Source: Ilumatobacter fluminis
Lineage (GTDB): Bacteria > Actinomycetota > Acidimicrobiia > Acidimicrobiales > Ilumatobacteraceae
Reading direction: 5' to 3'
Assembly (NCBI RefSeq): GCF_004364865.1
Contig: NZ_SOAU01000001.1
Coordinates: forward strand, 1-64,000
Length of the DNA: 64,000 nucleotides
How positions within the stretch are numbered: the first letter of the stretch is position 1; each line of letters begins with the position of its first letter. The position numbers and the translations under genes are program-made. The notes under the pieces are model-generated. The model saw nothing but the letters and a program-made list of their open reading frames with translations, ran no database searches and was not told the origin of the DNA. This document shows, one piece after another, positions 6,203 to 55,545 of this stretch.

Positions 6203-6271
6203 CTGAACCCCCTCAGTTCGATGACCACCACTATCGCACGACCCCGGACGCCGTCGAACCGGACCGACGAG

Positions 6272-6351
6272 CAGATGGGGTCAGGCACCTTCTGTTCAGC
6301 CGTCGGTGGTGTCGCAGGGTTCTCGCAACAGAAGGTGCCTGACCCCATCTG
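6272..6351. repeat. Family B perfect inverted repeat, 25-nt arms
   Basis: Arms at 6272-6296 and 6327-6351 are perfect reverse complements containing GGGGTCAGGCACCTTCTGTT, separated by a 30-nt loop. The element abuts the stop codon of the CYTH gene (6352) and lies upstream of the ceramidase-like gene. Elements with a GGGGTCAGGCACC core recur in unrelated bacterial genomes and are thought to be mobile palindromes; that link is from memory, not shown here. Confidence 0.9.
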
Positions 6352-6807
6352 TTACTCGGGCCAACCGTGGCGGGCGAGGGCAGCGTTGGTGTAGCGGCTG
6401 TCGTCGGTGACCTCGGTGCCGAACCAGTCGGGCGGATCGAACCGTGCGGCGGCGTCGGTGTCGGGGAACTCGACCTCGACGATCACCCGGCCGGCGAGGT
6501 CGCCGTCGAACAGGTCGAGTTCGGCGGTGTGTCCGTTGCCGAGGTCGAGTTCGTGGCGGCGCTTCTCGATGCGCAGCTCGGTCGGCTGCTGCCAGAGCGC
6601 GTCGAACTCCTCGTCGGTGAGTTCGCGTTCGATCTCGGTGCGGGCGAGGCCGCTGCCGGCCTTGATCGTGAGGATCCGCGCCGAGTTCTTGCGGCGCACG
6701 CGCACCGACACCGGCTCGGTCACGAGGTACGCCTGCTCGATCCGGACGGGGGTCGGCAGGTCGTCCGGCACCCGCTCGACGAGGAAGCGGCGTTCGATCT
6801 CGATCAT
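6352..6807 (-). CDS. CYTH-domain protein
   Basis: Small soluble protein (151 aa) of the CYTH (CyaB/thiamine-triphosphatase-like) superfamily, whose members hydrolyse or cyclise phosphoanhydrides in a beta-barrel tunnel; probable inorganic triphosphatase. The signature ExExR is seen as EIERR at residues 3-7, followed by the alternating basic and acidic strands typical of the tunnel (VRVRRK, EIERELTDEE, RIEKRRHELD, VEVEF). It is the second gene of a probable operon with the MazG-like gene, whose stop codon is 13 nt upstream. Confidence 0.85.
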   Translation of the reverse strand: MIEIERRFLVERVPDDLPTPVRIEQAYLVTEPVSVRVRRKNSARILTIKAGSGLARTEIERELTDEEFDALWQQPTELRIEKRRHELDLGNGHTAELDLFDGDLAGRVIVEVEFPDTDAAARFDPPDWFGTEVTDDSRYTNAALARHGWPE

Positions 6808-6820
6808 GACGTCGCCTCCG

Positions 6821-7099
6821 TCAGCAGTCGCAGGGGATCGCGTCGCACTTCGGGCACCCGTTCCGGTATCGGTCGACCACCGTCGTCAGGTCGACGTCGA
6901 CCTGGTTGGCCAGGGTCGCCACCCACGCGAGCACGTCGGAGAATTCGTGCTCGATCTCGGCACGCGTGCCCTTGCGGACCGCCTGCGCCAGCTCGCCCAG
7001 TTCTTCGCACAACCAGGCCACGGTGGGAGCGACGCCACGGTCGCGGTCCCGCTCTCCGTAGGTGCGTTCGATCACGTCTTGCAGCTCGACCAGGTTCAC
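6821..7099 (-). CDS. MazG-like nucleotide pyrophosphohydrolase
   Basis: Small all-alpha NTP pyrophosphohydrolase of 92 aa, likely clearing non-canonical or damaged nucleotides. The metal-binding motifs are EELGE and, after a spacer, EFSDVLAW (ExxD). The C-terminus carries CPKC and CDC, an unusual Cys-rich tail. I take the GTG at 7099 as start: it opens the conserved VNLVELQDVIE helix and is preceded on the minus strand by TACGGT 7 nt away. Frame extension further upstream has no MazG similarity and overlaps the divergent DAG-kinase-like gene. Confidence 0.82.
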   Translation of the reverse strand: MNLVELQDVIERTYGERDRDRGVAPTVAWLCEELGELAQAVRKGTRAEIEHEFSDVLAWVATLANQVDVDLTTVVDRYRNGCPKCDAIPCDC

Positions 7100-8031: not shown

Positions 8032-8505
8032 ATGTCATCGATCTATGACCTCCAGATGACGAGCATCACCGGTGAGCAGGTCGACTTCGACCAGTTCCGC
8101 GACCAGGTGCTCCTCATCGTCAACGTCGCCAGCGCTTGAGGCCTCACCCCTCAGTACGCAGGTCTGCGTGCGCTCCACCACGAGTTCGACGACGTCCAGG
8201 TGCTCGGGTTCCCGTGCAACCAGTTCGGCGCCCAAGAGCCGGGCTCGGAAGAGGAGATCCTCGAGTTCGTGCGGTCGAAGTTCGACGTCGACTTCCCGAT
8301 GTTCGCCAAGATCGAGGTGAACGGCGACGGCGCCGCACCGCTGTACCAGCTCCTCAAGAGCGAGCAGCCGGGCGACGGCGACAGCGCCGACATCACCTGG
8401 AACTTCGAGAAGTTCCTGGTCGACAAGCAGGGCAACGTCGTTCGACGCTTCGCCCCGCCGACGACGCCCGAAGAGGTCGGCGCCGTCATCGGCGAGTACC
8501 GCTGA
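8032..8505 (+). CDS. Selenocysteine-containing glutathione peroxidase (TGA at 8137-8139 = Sec36)
   Basis: Thiol/glutathione-type peroxidase reducing H2O2 and organic hydroperoxides. From ATG 8032 the frame reads to NVASA, meets TGA at codon 36, and continues without interruption as GLTPQYAGL and onward to the TGA stop at 8503-8505. The family motif is NVAS-x-(U/C)-G-x-TPQY, so the TGA sits exactly on the catalytic Sec/Cys. The remaining tetrad motifs are intact downstream: FGAQEPG (Gln) and WNFEKFLVD (Trp, Asn). Total 157 residues, normal for bacterial GPx. A SECIS-like hairpin follows the TGA (8154-8171). A nonsense pseudogene is possible but unlikely given the exact position and otherwise undamaged sequence. 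Peroxide-defence neighbours are ahpC and ahpF about 0.7-2 kb downstream. Confidence 0.9.
8154..8171 (+). promoter_or_regulatory. Bacterial SECIS-like hairpin for Sec36 of gpx
   Basis: Stem GTACGCA (8154-8160) pairs with TGCGTGC (8165-8171), including one G-U pair, and closes a four-nucleotide loop GGUC (8161-8164). The loop begins 21 nt after the TGA, within the range known for bacterial SECIS elements. The apical GCA-GGUC-UGC matches, as I recall it, the SelB-binding tip of the E. coli fdhF SECIS. It lies inside the coding region, as bacterial SECIS elements do. Confidence 0.8.
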
Positions 8506-8536: not shown

Positions 8537-9121
8537 ATGAACGGTCCGTCGCGTTGGAGCGCCGCATCCGGCGTCCAGCGCGGCGCCGACTACGACGAGC
8601 GCTGGGCCCGGATGGAGGCCGCCGGTGTCTCGATCCACGGCGAGGCCGACTTCATCGGCCGGTACGAGCCGTCATCGGTCCTCGACGCCGGCTGCGGCAC
8701 CGGCCGCGTCGCCATCGAGTTGGCACGCCGCGGGGTCGACGTCGTCGGGGTCGACCTCGATCCCCCGATGCTCGAAGCCGCCCGCGAGAAGGCGCCCGAC
8801 CTCGAGTGGGTCGCCGCCGACCTGCGAACCGTCGATCTCGGTCGTCGGTTCGACGTCGTGGCCGCCCCCGGCAACGTCATGATCTTCCTCGCGCCCGGCA
8901 CCGAGCGCGAGGTCGTCGCCAACCTGGCGCGCCACCTCGAGCCGGACGGCGTGCTCGTCGCCGGATTCCAGCTCGGCGGCCGCTACGACCTGCAGCATTA
9001 CGACGTCGACTGCGACGCCGCCGGCCTCACCCTCGTCGAGCGCTTCGCCACGTGGGAGGGCGCCCCGTGGCACCACGGCGGCGACTACGCCGTCAGCGCC
9101 CACCGCCCGGCGAAGGCGTGA
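8537..9121 (+). CDS. Class I SAM-dependent methyltransferase
   Basis: Soluble small-molecule methyltransferase of 194 aa; substrate unknown. Motif I is VLDAGCGTGRVAIEL (about residues 51-65), followed by the acidic motif II GVDLDPPML and the motif for adenine contact AADLRTVDL. The C-terminal half shows the usual PDGVLVAGF strand. It starts 31 nt after the gpx stop on the same strand and may be cotranscribed with it. Its stop codon lies inside a strong hairpin (9116-9156) that probably terminates the transcript before ahpC. Confidence 0.85.
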   Translation: MNGPSRWSAASGVQRGADYDERWARMEAAGVSIHGEADFIGRYEPSSVLDAGCGTGRVAIELARRGVDVVGVDLDPPMLEAAREKAPDLEWVAADLRTVDLGRRFDVVAAPGNVMIFLAPGTEREVVANLARHLEPDGVLVAGFQLGGRYDLQHYDVDCDAAGLTLVERFATWEGAPWHHGGDYAVSAHRPAKA

Positions 9122-9249: not shown

Positions 9250-9813
9250 ATGTCAGTGCTCAACACCCCCATCAAACCCTTCACCGCGACCGGCTTCCGC
9301 GCCGGCGAGACCGTTCAGGTCACCGAGCAGGACGTCCTCGGCAAGTGGGCGATCTTCTTCTTCTACCCCGCCGACTTCACCTTCGTCTGCCCGACCGAGC
9401 TCGGCGACCTCGCCGACCACTACGAAGACCTCCAGCGCATGGGCGTCGAGGTGTACTCGGTCTCGACCGACACCCACTTCGTGCACAAGGCATGGCACGA
9501 GGCCTCCGACACGATCGGCAAGATCCAGTACACGATGCTCGGCGACCCGACCGGCGCCCTCACCAACAACTTCGAGAACATGCGCCCCGACGAAGGTCTG
9601 GCCGACCGTGGCACCTTCCTCGTCGACCCCGACGGCGTCATCCAGTTCTTCGAGGTGACCGCCGAAGGCATCGGACGCAACGCCGCCGAGCTCGTCCGCA
9701 AGGTCAAGGCCGCCCAGTACGTGCGCGAGCACCCGGGCGAGGTCTGCCCGGCCAAGTGGGAAGAGGGCGACGACACGCTCGCACCCTCCCTCGACCTCGT
9801 CGGCAAAATCTGA
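9250..9813 (+). CDS. ahpC: Alkyl hydroperoxide reductase subunit C (peroxiredoxin)
   Basis: Typical 2-Cys peroxiredoxin of the AhpC/Prx1 class, cytosolic, reducing H2O2 and alkyl hydroperoxides and recycled by AhpF. The peroxidatic cysteine is Cys47 in FTFVCPTEL and the resolving cysteine is in GEVCPAKW near residue 166. At 187 aa it equals the E. coli protein in length, which supports the ATG at 9250 over upstream in-frame GTG codons. It is paired with ahpF, 257 nt downstream, across a structured spacer. Confidence 0.95.
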
Positions 9814-9991: not shown

Positions 9992-10070
9992 CGCTTCCAC
10001 TTGCGCTCACCGCTTTGCTTCCTGGCCGCTGGTGGCGGCCGAACGCCCTTGATGTTTGGAGAACCCTTCG

Positions 10071-11669
10071 ATGTTGAATGAACAGCTTTCCTCGCAGCTG
10101 AAGACCCACCTGGCTTCGCTGACCCACGACGTGGAGTTCGTCGCCTCGTTGGACGACTCTGCCAAGGCCACCGAGATGCGCGACCTGCTCGAACAGATCG
10201 CCGGCCTCGCCGACCGAGTCAGCCTCCGCACCGACGGCACCTCGGCCCGCGTACCCTCCTTCGAGATCAAGCGGCCCGCCAGTGGCGACGCCGACATGAT
10301 CGAAGGCGTCGAGTTCGCCGCCATCCCGCTCGGACACGAGTTCACCTCGCTCGTGCTCGCCATCCTCCAAGTCGGCGGCGTCGTCCCCAAGATCGGTGAC
10401 GAAACCATCGCCCAGATCCGAGCCATCGACCGCAACCTCGCGTTCGAGACGTACATGTCGCTCAGCTGCCAGAACTGCCCCGACGTGGTGCAGGCGCTCA
10501 ACGCCATGAGCGTCATCAACCCCCGTATCAGCCACGTCGCCATCGACGGTTCGCTCTTCAAGGACGAGGTCGAGGAGCGCCAGATCATGGCCGTCCCGAA
10601 CGTGTTCCTCAACGGCGAACCGTTCGACCAGGGCCGCATGACGATCGACCAGATCGTCGGCAAGCTCGACACCGGTGCCGAGGCCCGCATGGCCGACGAG
10701 ATCGACGCCAAGGACCCCTTCGACGTGCTCGTCGTCGGTGGCGGCCCCGCCGGCGCCGCCTCGGCCGTCTACGCCGCCCGCAAGGGCATCCGCACCGGCA
10801 TCGCCACCGAGCGTTTCGGTGGCCAGGTGCTCGACACGATGGGCATCGAGAACCTGATCTCGGTTCCCAAGACCGAGGGGCCCAAGCTGGCCGCGGCGCT
10901 CGAGACCCACGTCCGCGAGTACGACGTCGACATCATGAACCTCCAGCTCGCAGAGCGCCTCGTACCGGCGAGCGAGCCCGGCGGCCTCACCACGGTCGAA
11001 CTCGCCAACGGCGCCAAGCTCGAGGCCCGCACCGTCGTGCTGTCGACCGGAGCCCGTTGGCGCAACATGAACGTCCCCGGTGAGCAGGAGTACCGCAACA
11101 AGGGCGTCACCTACTGCCCGCACTGCGACGGTCCCCTCTTCGCCGGCAAGCGCGTCGCCGTGATCGGCGGCGGCAACTCGGGCGTCGAAGCGGCGATCGA
11201 CCTGGCCGGCATCGTCGGCCACGTCACCCTCCTCGAGTTCATGGACGAGCTCCGTGCCGACGAGGTGCTGCAGCGCAAGCTGCGCAGCCTGCCGAACGTC
11301 GACGTCGTGCTCAACGCCATGACGACCGAGGTGATCGGCGACGGCTCGAAGGTGACCGGGCTGGCCTACACCGACCGGCCGACCGACGAGCAGCACGTCC
11401 TCGAACTCGACGGCGTGTTCGTCCAGATCGGCCTGCTGCCCAACACCGAGTGGTTGGCGGGCACGGTCGAGCTGAGCGAGCGCGGCGAAATCGTCGTCGA
11501 CGACCACGGCCGCACCTCGGTGCCCGGCGTGTTCGCTGCCGGCGACGTCACCACGGTGCCGTACAAGCAGATCGTGATCTCGATGGGACAGGGCGCGACC
11601 GCCGCGCTCAGCGCCTTCGATCACCTGATCCGCACCTCGGCCCCCGAGGCCGAACTCGCCACCGTCTGA
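10071..11669 (+). CDS. ahpF: Alkyl hydroperoxide reductase subunit F
   Basis: FAD- and NAD(P)H-dependent disulfide reductase (532 aa) that recycles AhpC. The N-terminal tandem-thioredoxin-like domain contains CQNC in [11 protein letters not shown]. The FAD-binding motif is [15 protein letters not shown], the catalytic disulfide is CPHC in TYCPHCDGP, and a second nucleotide fold [15 protein letters not shown] follows. I use the ATG at 10071, with GGAGAA 7 nt upstream, rather than the TTG at 10056. The N-terminal domain distinguishes it from ordinary thioredoxin reductase. Confidence 0.95.
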
Positions 11670-11747
11670 TCACGACGACGCCAGTCTCCCAACAGCGACG
11701 CCCGGCCCCGAACGAGGAGCCGGGCGTCGAAGGTTTTCGGCACCGAC

Positions 11748-12006
11748 CGGGTCGGGTGTCGTAGGGAACGGCGACGGAGAGTATCCCGGGTCGGGTGTCG
11801 TAGGGAACGGCGACGGAGAGTATCCCGGGTCGGGTGTCGTAGGGAACGGCGACGGAGTCGACGTTTCCGGAGATCACCCGACTCCGGTGACCAGGGTGCG
11901 CGTCCGGGTCGGGTGATCTCCCGAAACGCCTCGGCTGCGCCTCGTCGTTCCGTCCGACACCCGACCCGGTGTGGTTCGCCTCGTCGTTCCGTACGACACC
12001 CGACCC
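11748..12006. repeat. Family C repeat cluster with 39-bp tandem units
   Basis: Between ahpF and the YdeI-like gene. Three head-to-tail units start with GTCGGGTGTCGTAGGG at 11751, 11790 and 11829 (period exactly 39). They are followed by GTTTCCGGAGATCACCCGAC and, about 30 nt later, the inverted GTCGGGTGATCTCCCGAAAC and two inverted copies ending ACACCCGACCCG. The whole could fold as a nested hairpin. The same arrangement in single copy occurs at 60560-60697. The 362-nt gap (11670-12031) holds nothing else recognisable apart from the TAGCCT box at 12019-12024. Confidence 0.9.
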
Positions 12007-47034: not shown

Positions 47035-47161
47035 GTCGGTTGAGGTCAGACCCCAACCGACGGTGCAGGACTGCAGCCTCCGAGCATGCCGGTCGGTTGG
47101 GGTCTGACCTCAACCGACGATGCCGAGCATGCCTGTCGGTTGGGGTCTGACCTCAACCGAC
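47035..47161. repeat. Family E repeat cluster (three palindromes)
   Basis: 27-nt palindromes with half-site GTCGGTTGGGGTC or its A variant at 47035-47061 (centre CAG), 47092-47118 (CTG) and 47135-47161 (CTG). Linker one contains GCAGGACTGCAGCCTCCGAG. The last unit supplies the stop codon of the TetR gene (47153-47155). Confidence 0.93.
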
Positions 47162-47698
47162 GATGCCGAGGCGGGCGGCGGCTCGGTCGGCGGGTTCGGG
47201 GCCGGCGAGTTGGCGGAGGAGCAGGACGCCGTCGAGGAGGGCGATGGCCGCTTCGGCGTCGGCTCGGCGCTGTTCCTCTGGGCCGGTGAAGTAGCCCGTC
47301 GCCCAGTCGATCCAGCCCTCGACCAGTTGGGGCACGATCGCGTCGTACGGCGACCGGCCCGCCGCGGCAAGCCCGTTCGCCTCGAAGAACAGGCCGAAGG
47401 TCGCGTCGGCTTCGGGGTTCGTGAGCGCCGGCCAGGCCCGGCGGACCAGCTCGATCGGCTCGGCGGCGCCGCCCTCGAAGGCCGGTTCGAGGGTGGCCTG
47501 GAGCTGCAGGCCGAGCATGACCACGACGTGGGCGATCAGGTCGCCGATCGTGGGGAAGTAGTAGACGACCGTCCGGTCGGCGATGCCGAGTCGTCGGGCG
47601 ACGCGCCCGAAGCTCAGCTGGCTGAGCCCACCGTCGAAGGCCGTCTCGACGGCGGCGGCGAGGATCTCGTCACGGCTGTGCTTGCGACTGGGGGACAC
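47153..47698 (-). CDS. TetR-family transcriptional regulator
   Basis: DNA-binding repressor of 181 aa. The HTH includes EILAAAVETAFDGGLSQLSFGRVARRLGIADRTVVYYFPTIGDLI; the C-terminal half is a generic ligand-binding domain. GTG 47698 is preceded by TACGAT 7 nt upstream. It is divergent from the alpha/beta hydrolase gene, with two identical-spaced operator palindromes between, so it likely represses that gene and itself. Its last residues (GIVG) and stop codon derive from a family E repeat. Confidence 0.87.
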   Translation of the reverse strand: MSPSRKHSRDEILAAAVETAFDGGLSQLSFGRVARRLGIADRTVVYYFPTIGDLIAHVVVMLGLQLQATLEPAFEGGAAEPIELVRRAWPALTNPEADATFGLFFEANGLAAAGRSPYDAIVPQLVEGWIDWATGYFTGPEEQRRADAEAAIALLDGVLLLRQLAGPEPADRAAARLGIVG

Positions 47699-55379: not shown

Positions 55380-55520
55380 GTCGGTTGAGGTCAGACCCCA
55401 ACCGACATCGCAGGACTGCAGCCTCCGAGCACGTTCGTCGGTTGAGGTCAGACCCCAACCGATATCGCAGGACTGCAGCCTCCGAGCACGTTCGTCGGTT
55501 GGGGTCTGACCTCAACCGAC
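55380..55520. repeat. Family E repeat cluster (three palindromes)
   Basis: Palindromes of half-site GTCGGTTGAGGTC or its GGGG variant at 55380-55406 (CAG), 55437-55463 (CAG) and 55494-55520 (CTG). Spacing is 57 nt start to start twice. Linkers are nearly identical (GCAGGACTGCAGCCTCCGAG). This is the most regular copy in the window. Confidence 0.94.
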
Positions 55521-55545
55521 ATCAACCGGCGTTAGGGTCGGCTCG

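Follow-up and report, generated by a model that had tools for sequence, protein, structure and literature searches.

A glutathione peroxidase gene of Ilumatobacter fluminis with a catalytic UGA codon: a predicted bacterial selenoprotein without the resolving cysteine

Does a glutathione peroxidase (GPx) gene that carries a TGA in the place of its catalytic codon encode a selenoprotein, and how would such an enzyme complete its cycle when the resolving cysteine is missing as well? These questions are raised by positions 8032-8505 (forward strand, as are all features of the gene given below) of the window, by which we mean the whole stretch of 64,000 nucleotides from Ilumatobacter fluminis that was analysed. 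Re-reading of the sequence gave the same frame as the preliminary description had claimed: it runs from 8032 to the stop codon at 8503-8505 with the TGA at 8137-8139 (codon 36) as the single interruption, and it specifies 157 residues when the UGA is read as selenocysteine (Sec). This TGA had been placed on the catalytic Sec/Cys codon of the family, and the homologous loci agree, having TGA, TGT or TGC there. The read-through protein matches the Pfam family GSHPx (PF00255) over residues 4-109 (3.1e-39, 133.3 bits compared to a cut-off of 27); the GPx equivalogs of NCBIfam match it as well, all under their cut-offs. It is the sole GSHPx match of the whole genome (E <= 0.001), with one TGA inside. 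The list of table 11 open reading frames (pieces of at least 60 aa) holds in this frame only 8200-8505, 101 aa with a GTG start. A gene that is easily lost to annotation is now settled.

The product was compared with its relatives in an alignment of 163 rows, 72 distinct Sec and 91 Cys sequences, after the removal of 8 duplicates from 171; an earlier version had 34 Sec and 47 Cys rows. The Cys rows are a partial set, since 30 loci and 20 picked stretches were used from the class-sample matches described below. The catalytic tetrad is complete in the Sec-GPx product as U36, Q64, W123 and N124: Gln64 (8221-8223) is found in 72/72 Sec and 84/91 Cys rows, and Trp123-Asn124 (8398-8403) in 163/163. 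The only cysteine besides position 36 is Cys62 in the FPCNQ motif (8215-8217), and every row of the earlier alignment, 34 Sec and 47 Cys, has a Cys there. The AF2 model of the read-through protein has a pLDDT of 90.4, and poplar GPX5 and S. mansoni GPx head its structural matches in the PDB; human GPX4 is within the first seven. The length of 157 residues and the best fits of the model to small GPx suggest that the dimer/tetramer loops of the tetrameric GPX1 type are absent.

The codon at the catalytic position was followed in the 80 best homologous loci of genome_contigs, where it is TGA in 33 and TGT or TGC in 47. Decayed relatives had been named in the preliminary description as the observation that would speak against a selenoprotein; what we see is that close relatives keep the TGA at this site and the rest of the frame is intact. 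The codons 3' of the hairpin discussed below are under purifying selection, with dN 0.12 and dS 0.61 against the copy from the same genus, and dN was smaller than dS in 5/5 comparisons. Among the TGA loci are some from Ilumatobacteraceae and further Acidimicrobiia, from bins of gamma- and alphaproteobacteria and from a myxobacterial bin. In the class sample of 247 genomes a GPx match was present in 111, and a TGA-GPx over the cut-off in 12, the genome of the window included. A search of 377 Myxococcota genomes for the active-site pattern with TGA returned 39 matches in 38 genomes, and the control gave one match, in G310. Thirty of these matches were taken as loci and 29 proved to be GPx; one of the loci, L181, is the gene of L026 that was already counted, and L173 was dropped as it is not a GPx. 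Of the 38 matching genomes, at least one, G418, has a match that is not a GPx. The earlier remark that Sec-GPx is sparse in bacteria is thus too strong, given 12/247 class genomes, the TGA pattern in 38/377 Myxococcota and a record in print since 2005 (PMC1088965). These figures do not measure prevalence, as the sampling is biased towards this protein: the 80 loci were chosen for their similarity to it and the Myxococcota pattern demands a TGA.

A separate group of genes surfaced in five class genomes as sub-cut-off GPx matches (L200-L204, in G149, G036, G087, G220 and G020). They are peroxiredoxin-like, and their UGC motif (SWAPY/AWASW-U-GC) contains an in-frame TGA, with a hairpin CCTGCC-N5-GGCAGG after it (CTTGCC in L202). 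Matched by description, they probably belong to the selenoprotein family that PMC2398784 calls 'Prx-like (UGC-containing)'.

The decoding of UGA as Sec requires a tRNA-Sec, SelA, SelB and SelD, and the preliminary description had made their presence elsewhere in the genome the touchstone of its proposal. All four are there. The host genome, a single contig (4,775,416 bases, 99.97% complete), has tRNA-Sec at 850365-850456 (66.6 bits, over the cut-off; ARAGORN anticodon TCA), SelA at 766810-767862 and SelD at 3521124-3522032. SelB adjoins SelA; its model matched only over positions 2-342 of 581, and the C-terminal winged helix (SelB-wing_3) was found too. SelA accompanies the over-cut-off TGA-GPx in 12/12 class genomes, which alone says little because SelA is common in the class (over the cut-off in 169/247). 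Of the 33 genomes of the TGA loci, 31 have SelA, and our search found none in the remaining two, G265 (L030) and G268 (L033). Within genus g3, a TGA-GPx goes together with SelA in G047, and G014, whose GPx is a Cys form, gave no match to SelA.

The proposed SECIS element, a hairpin at 8154-8171 with a stem of 7 bp and the loop GGUC at 8161-8164, was borne out by folding (-9.9 kcal/mol for a 22-nt stretch) and by pair counts. Its distance of 21 nt from the TGA, as first described, is correct for the loop; between the TGA and the start of the hairpin there are 14 nt. The bacterial SECIS limits quoted in PMC13188914 accommodate it by loop (GGUC), stem (7), spacing (21) and energy (-9.9 kcal/mol for the 22-nt stretch). 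The likeness to E. coli fdhF, which the preliminary description had pointed out, is real: the 10-base tip GCAGGTCTGC is identical in fdhF, where it is arranged as TGA-N15-GCAGGTCTGC. In the window there is one such tip preceded by a TGA, where 0.03 would be expected by chance. Genome-wide, the pattern gives 2 matches and the reversed control also 2, so that by itself it is not decisive; the other place in the genome, C1:1859715, was set aside as no more than control level. Folding at least equal to that of the window's 22-nt hairpin was seen in 3/200 shuffled sequences, and 9/200 matched or surpassed the 50 nt that start at the TGA. The 50-nt stretches of the relatives are unremarkable, with 30/200 shuffles folding as well for L021 (a stretch that starts after its TGA), 63/200 for L026 and 106/200 for L024.

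Comparison of the relatives is more informative. Of the 72 distinct Sec rows, 66 form the full set of 7 pairs and the remaining 6 miss a single pair, while 90/91 Cys rows form 0-4 pairs and one (L025) forms 5. The loop of the 72 Sec rows reads GGTC in 67, GGGT in 4 and AGTC in 1, and the tip GCAGGTCTGC is present in 34/44 Sec rows compared to 0/91 Cys rows. Six rows have U-A in place of C-G at pair 21-32, which takes no fewer than 4 changes on a quick tree, and six have A-U in place of G-C at pair 22-31, with a minimum of 2 changes. The latter change swaps two residues, Ala to Thr and Arg to Cys; therefore the RNA constraint appears to override the protein at this pair. In 22 distinct sequences the covariation score, 0.184, is higher than in any of 500 shuffles (mean 0.127) or any slid register, and the number of double-change pairs, 2, is reached by 11/500 shuffles, counts that are not probabilities as the set consists of related sequences. 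One of the five measures, further pair types, was not above chance (3 compared to 3.6 in shuffles). Compared to the rest of the same genes, the hairpin is strongly enriched in the codons GCA, GGT, CTG and CGT, again in related sequences. As far as the alignment goes, members of different phyla retain the hairpin and show compensatory changes in it, and it is this conservation, not the folding, that decides whether the predicted SECIS element is real. In four Sec-GPx (L024, L041, L044, L046) the hairpin has GCCGGGTTGC in place of GCAGGTCTGC, a loop variant that the SelB of those bacteria would need to accept.

A second hairpin, 8137-8153 (TGAGG/CCTCA), which includes the UGA, appears in the predicted fold of the window and is not claimed as a structure. 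The encoded residues largely dictate four of its five pairs. At the free pair, A3-T15, compensation is impossible, and T stands there in 25/44 rows and in 35/72 of the enlarged set; the free base is C in 16 of the 28 added Myxococcota rows. CCT is enriched here compared to other Pro codons of the same genes (22/35 and 36/326), in kin sequences that allow no real P value.

One would argue that the TGA is a sequencing error or a recent nonsense change in a dying Cys-GPx, as a single base separates it from TGC and TGT. Such an accident does not fit 72 distinct sequences that all have TGA at this codon, a downstream frame that is intact with dS above dN, the paired changes in the hairpin, a complete Sec machinery and a genome without a second GSHPx match, and we give it next to no credence. 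Just as improbable is the idea that a near-cognate tRNA or ordinary readthrough suppresses the UGA and that the hairpin serves some other role: readthrough of UGA by tRNA-Trp does occur in bacteria, yet here the UGA sits at the catalytic position, the hairpin lies within the bacterial SECIS limits and bears the fdhF tip, and SelA co-occurs. Judged by its sequence, the gene is almost certainly a functional selenoprotein gene. SelB with Sec-tRNA(Sec) would bind the hairpin at 8154-8171 and decode the UGA at 8137-8139 as selenocysteine, to judge from the conserved parts, and the product would be a GPX4-like small glutathione peroxidase with the tetrad Sec36-Gln64-Trp123-Asn124.

The Sec-GPx of this sample share a further property. 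The cysteine of the Cys-block, which is the disulfide partner in thioredoxin-dependent GPx (PMC10084747), corresponds to position 80 of the window protein, here Val80 (8269-8271), so the two-cysteine thioredoxin-dependent arrangement is absent. This resolving Cys is missing from 72/72 distinct Sec-GPx of Actinomycetota, Pseudomonadota and Myxococcota and present in 89/91 Cys-GPx. Within the open-licence PMC literature we recognised no paper that pairs Sec with the missing resolving Cys in bacteria. The Sec sequences form one clade with a support of 98 (97 with the Myxococcota added), or 100/99 when the Sec, SECIS and resolving-Cys columns are removed, the bootstrap not being fully settled. Within our sample this putative Sec-GPx clade spans Actinomycetota, Pseudomonadota and Myxococcota, and we infer that lateral transfer has spread it. 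Other Sec-GPx lineages, for example that of Treponema denticola, could have the resolving Cys. L025 and L028, the only Cys rows in which it is missing, nest separately inside the Sec clade; L025 retains 5/7 SECIS pairs and both genomes hold SelA. They are probable natural Sec-to-Cys reversions in which the resolving Cys was not regained. The tree is unrooted, with many of its forks unresolved, so that the direction from Sec to Cys is one that we infer. The pairing of Sec with the lack of the resolving Cys in this sample and the two natural reversions make a bacterial test bed for the use of selenium in peroxidases.

With the resolving Cys missing, reducing power would most likely come from an external thiol. 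Peroxide would oxidise Sec36 to a selenenic acid, which mycothiol, a redoxin or another thiol would most likely resolve, and the intramolecular disulfide of ordinary bacterial GPx would not be used by the Sec-GPx. We consider this one-selenol mechanism, in the manner of vertebrate GPX, probable for the Sec-GPx examined. It could be opposed that the UGA does specify Sec and that Cys62 or another protein thiol takes over the resolution, the enzyme remaining thioredoxin-dependent. Cys62 is kept in 81/81 rows, several donors are possible for one Sec enzyme, and genes for AhpC (9250-9813) and AhpF (10056-11669), both over NCBIfam cut-offs, lie downstream of the Sec-GPx. However, Cys-GPx keep Cys62 alongside the equivalent of Cys80, and it is thus an unlikely replacement; relatives of AhpC and AhpF were not found beside the other GPx genes in 46 loci, save for a weak AhpC-like match in L018, though many loci are short and their unequal length makes an absent neighbour weak evidence. 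We therefore regard a thioredoxin-dependent Sec enzyme as unlikely, at about one chance in a handful. The external-thiol reading raises the matter of which thiol. The genome has an MshA-like gene (391.2 bits, under the cut-off of 462.5), an MshC-like gene (419.6 bits, under 485.1) and a weaker second match to the MshC model (290.7 bits) that may instead be a cysteinyl-tRNA synthetase, and its best glutathione synthetase match reaches 71.4 bits compared to a cut-off of 299. Mycothiol is a candidate and not more, because the MshC model matches 14/14 control genomes, over the cut-off in 1; as the specific reductant it is conceivable, and we lean against it. An in-frame TGA in the MshC-like gene was rejected as a sign of another selenoprotein, since it precedes the probable start codon. 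The question of the reductant is testable in an organism whose genome is complete and has every sel gene and possibly a mycothiol pathway.

The surroundings of the gene hold some further features. A methyltransferase gene (8537-9121) has relatives in L012 and L141. Directly after the AhpF-like gene there is a perfect 39-bp tandem repeat of 2.8 copies (11747-11857). A dispersed palindromic element with arms around GGGGTCAGGCACCTTCTG occurs in the window (6261-6362, arms 89% complementary) and in L011 (8679-8764 and 15124-15203, with perfect arms of 29 and 25 nt). A second repeat family, GTCGGTTGAGGTCAGACCCCAACCGAC-like, is both inverted and tandem, at 47080-47170 and 55380-55523 of the window and at 6763-6901 and 10582-10806 of L011.

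Taken as a whole, the explanation that joins a selenoprotein gene, decoding by SelB and the hairpin, the tetrad, resolution by an external thiol and a Sec-GPx clade is in our judgement highly probable. A bolder version is offered tentatively, at somewhat under even odds: a single clade of one-selenol GPx would be shared laterally by at least three phyla, the gain of Sec would have gone together with the loss of the resolving Cys to give the architecture of vertebrate GPX, the mycothiol-producing Acidimicrobiia would own a mycothiol-dependent selenoperoxidase, and the Cys revertants would be either crippled or served by a new donor.

Bacterial Sec-GPx as such has been known since 2005, and this gene adds one more member. 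Five sequences were reported from the Sargasso Sea metagenome in that year (PMC1088965), 40 stand in the first count column for the GOS metagenome (PMC2398784), another is described in Treponema denticola (PMC1794560), and bacterial Sec-GPx and their UxxT motif are listed in two reviews (PMC9312934, PMC13188914). According to these accounts they share with our gene the GSHPx family, the UxxT motif and a bacterial SECIS after the UGA; the likeness is drawn by description, and the difference is that here the gene stands in a complete actinobacterial chromosome with four sel genes. The SECIS of E. coli fdhF has the same tip, but its loop lies 18 nt after the UGA instead of 21 nt and the protein is a different one. 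The two-cysteine bacterial GPx belong to the same Pfam family, the Cys rows of our set being about 43-62% identical, but have Cys36 and a resolving Cys where our protein has Sec36 and Val80. A 2023 paper describes the known bacterial GPx as sharing the two-cysteine thioredoxin-dependent pattern (PMC10084747), and both cysteines are given as present in bacterial GPx in PMC8614756; the picture as drawn in the former misses the UGA-containing enzymes. Vertebrate GPX4 is likewise a small GPx with catalytic Sec, the tetrad and no resolving Cys, and the structures agree with a TMq of about 0.93; the canonical human GPx in general are without the resolving Cys (PMC10084747). Contrastingly, GPX4 has its SECIS element in the 3' UTR and not as an in-frame hairpin, and the bacterial host perhaps offers a low-molecular thiol other than glutathione. 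Among mycothiol-using actinobacteria, the mycothiol peroxidase of Corynebacterium glutamicum is a GPx-type Cys enzyme with a resolving Cys.
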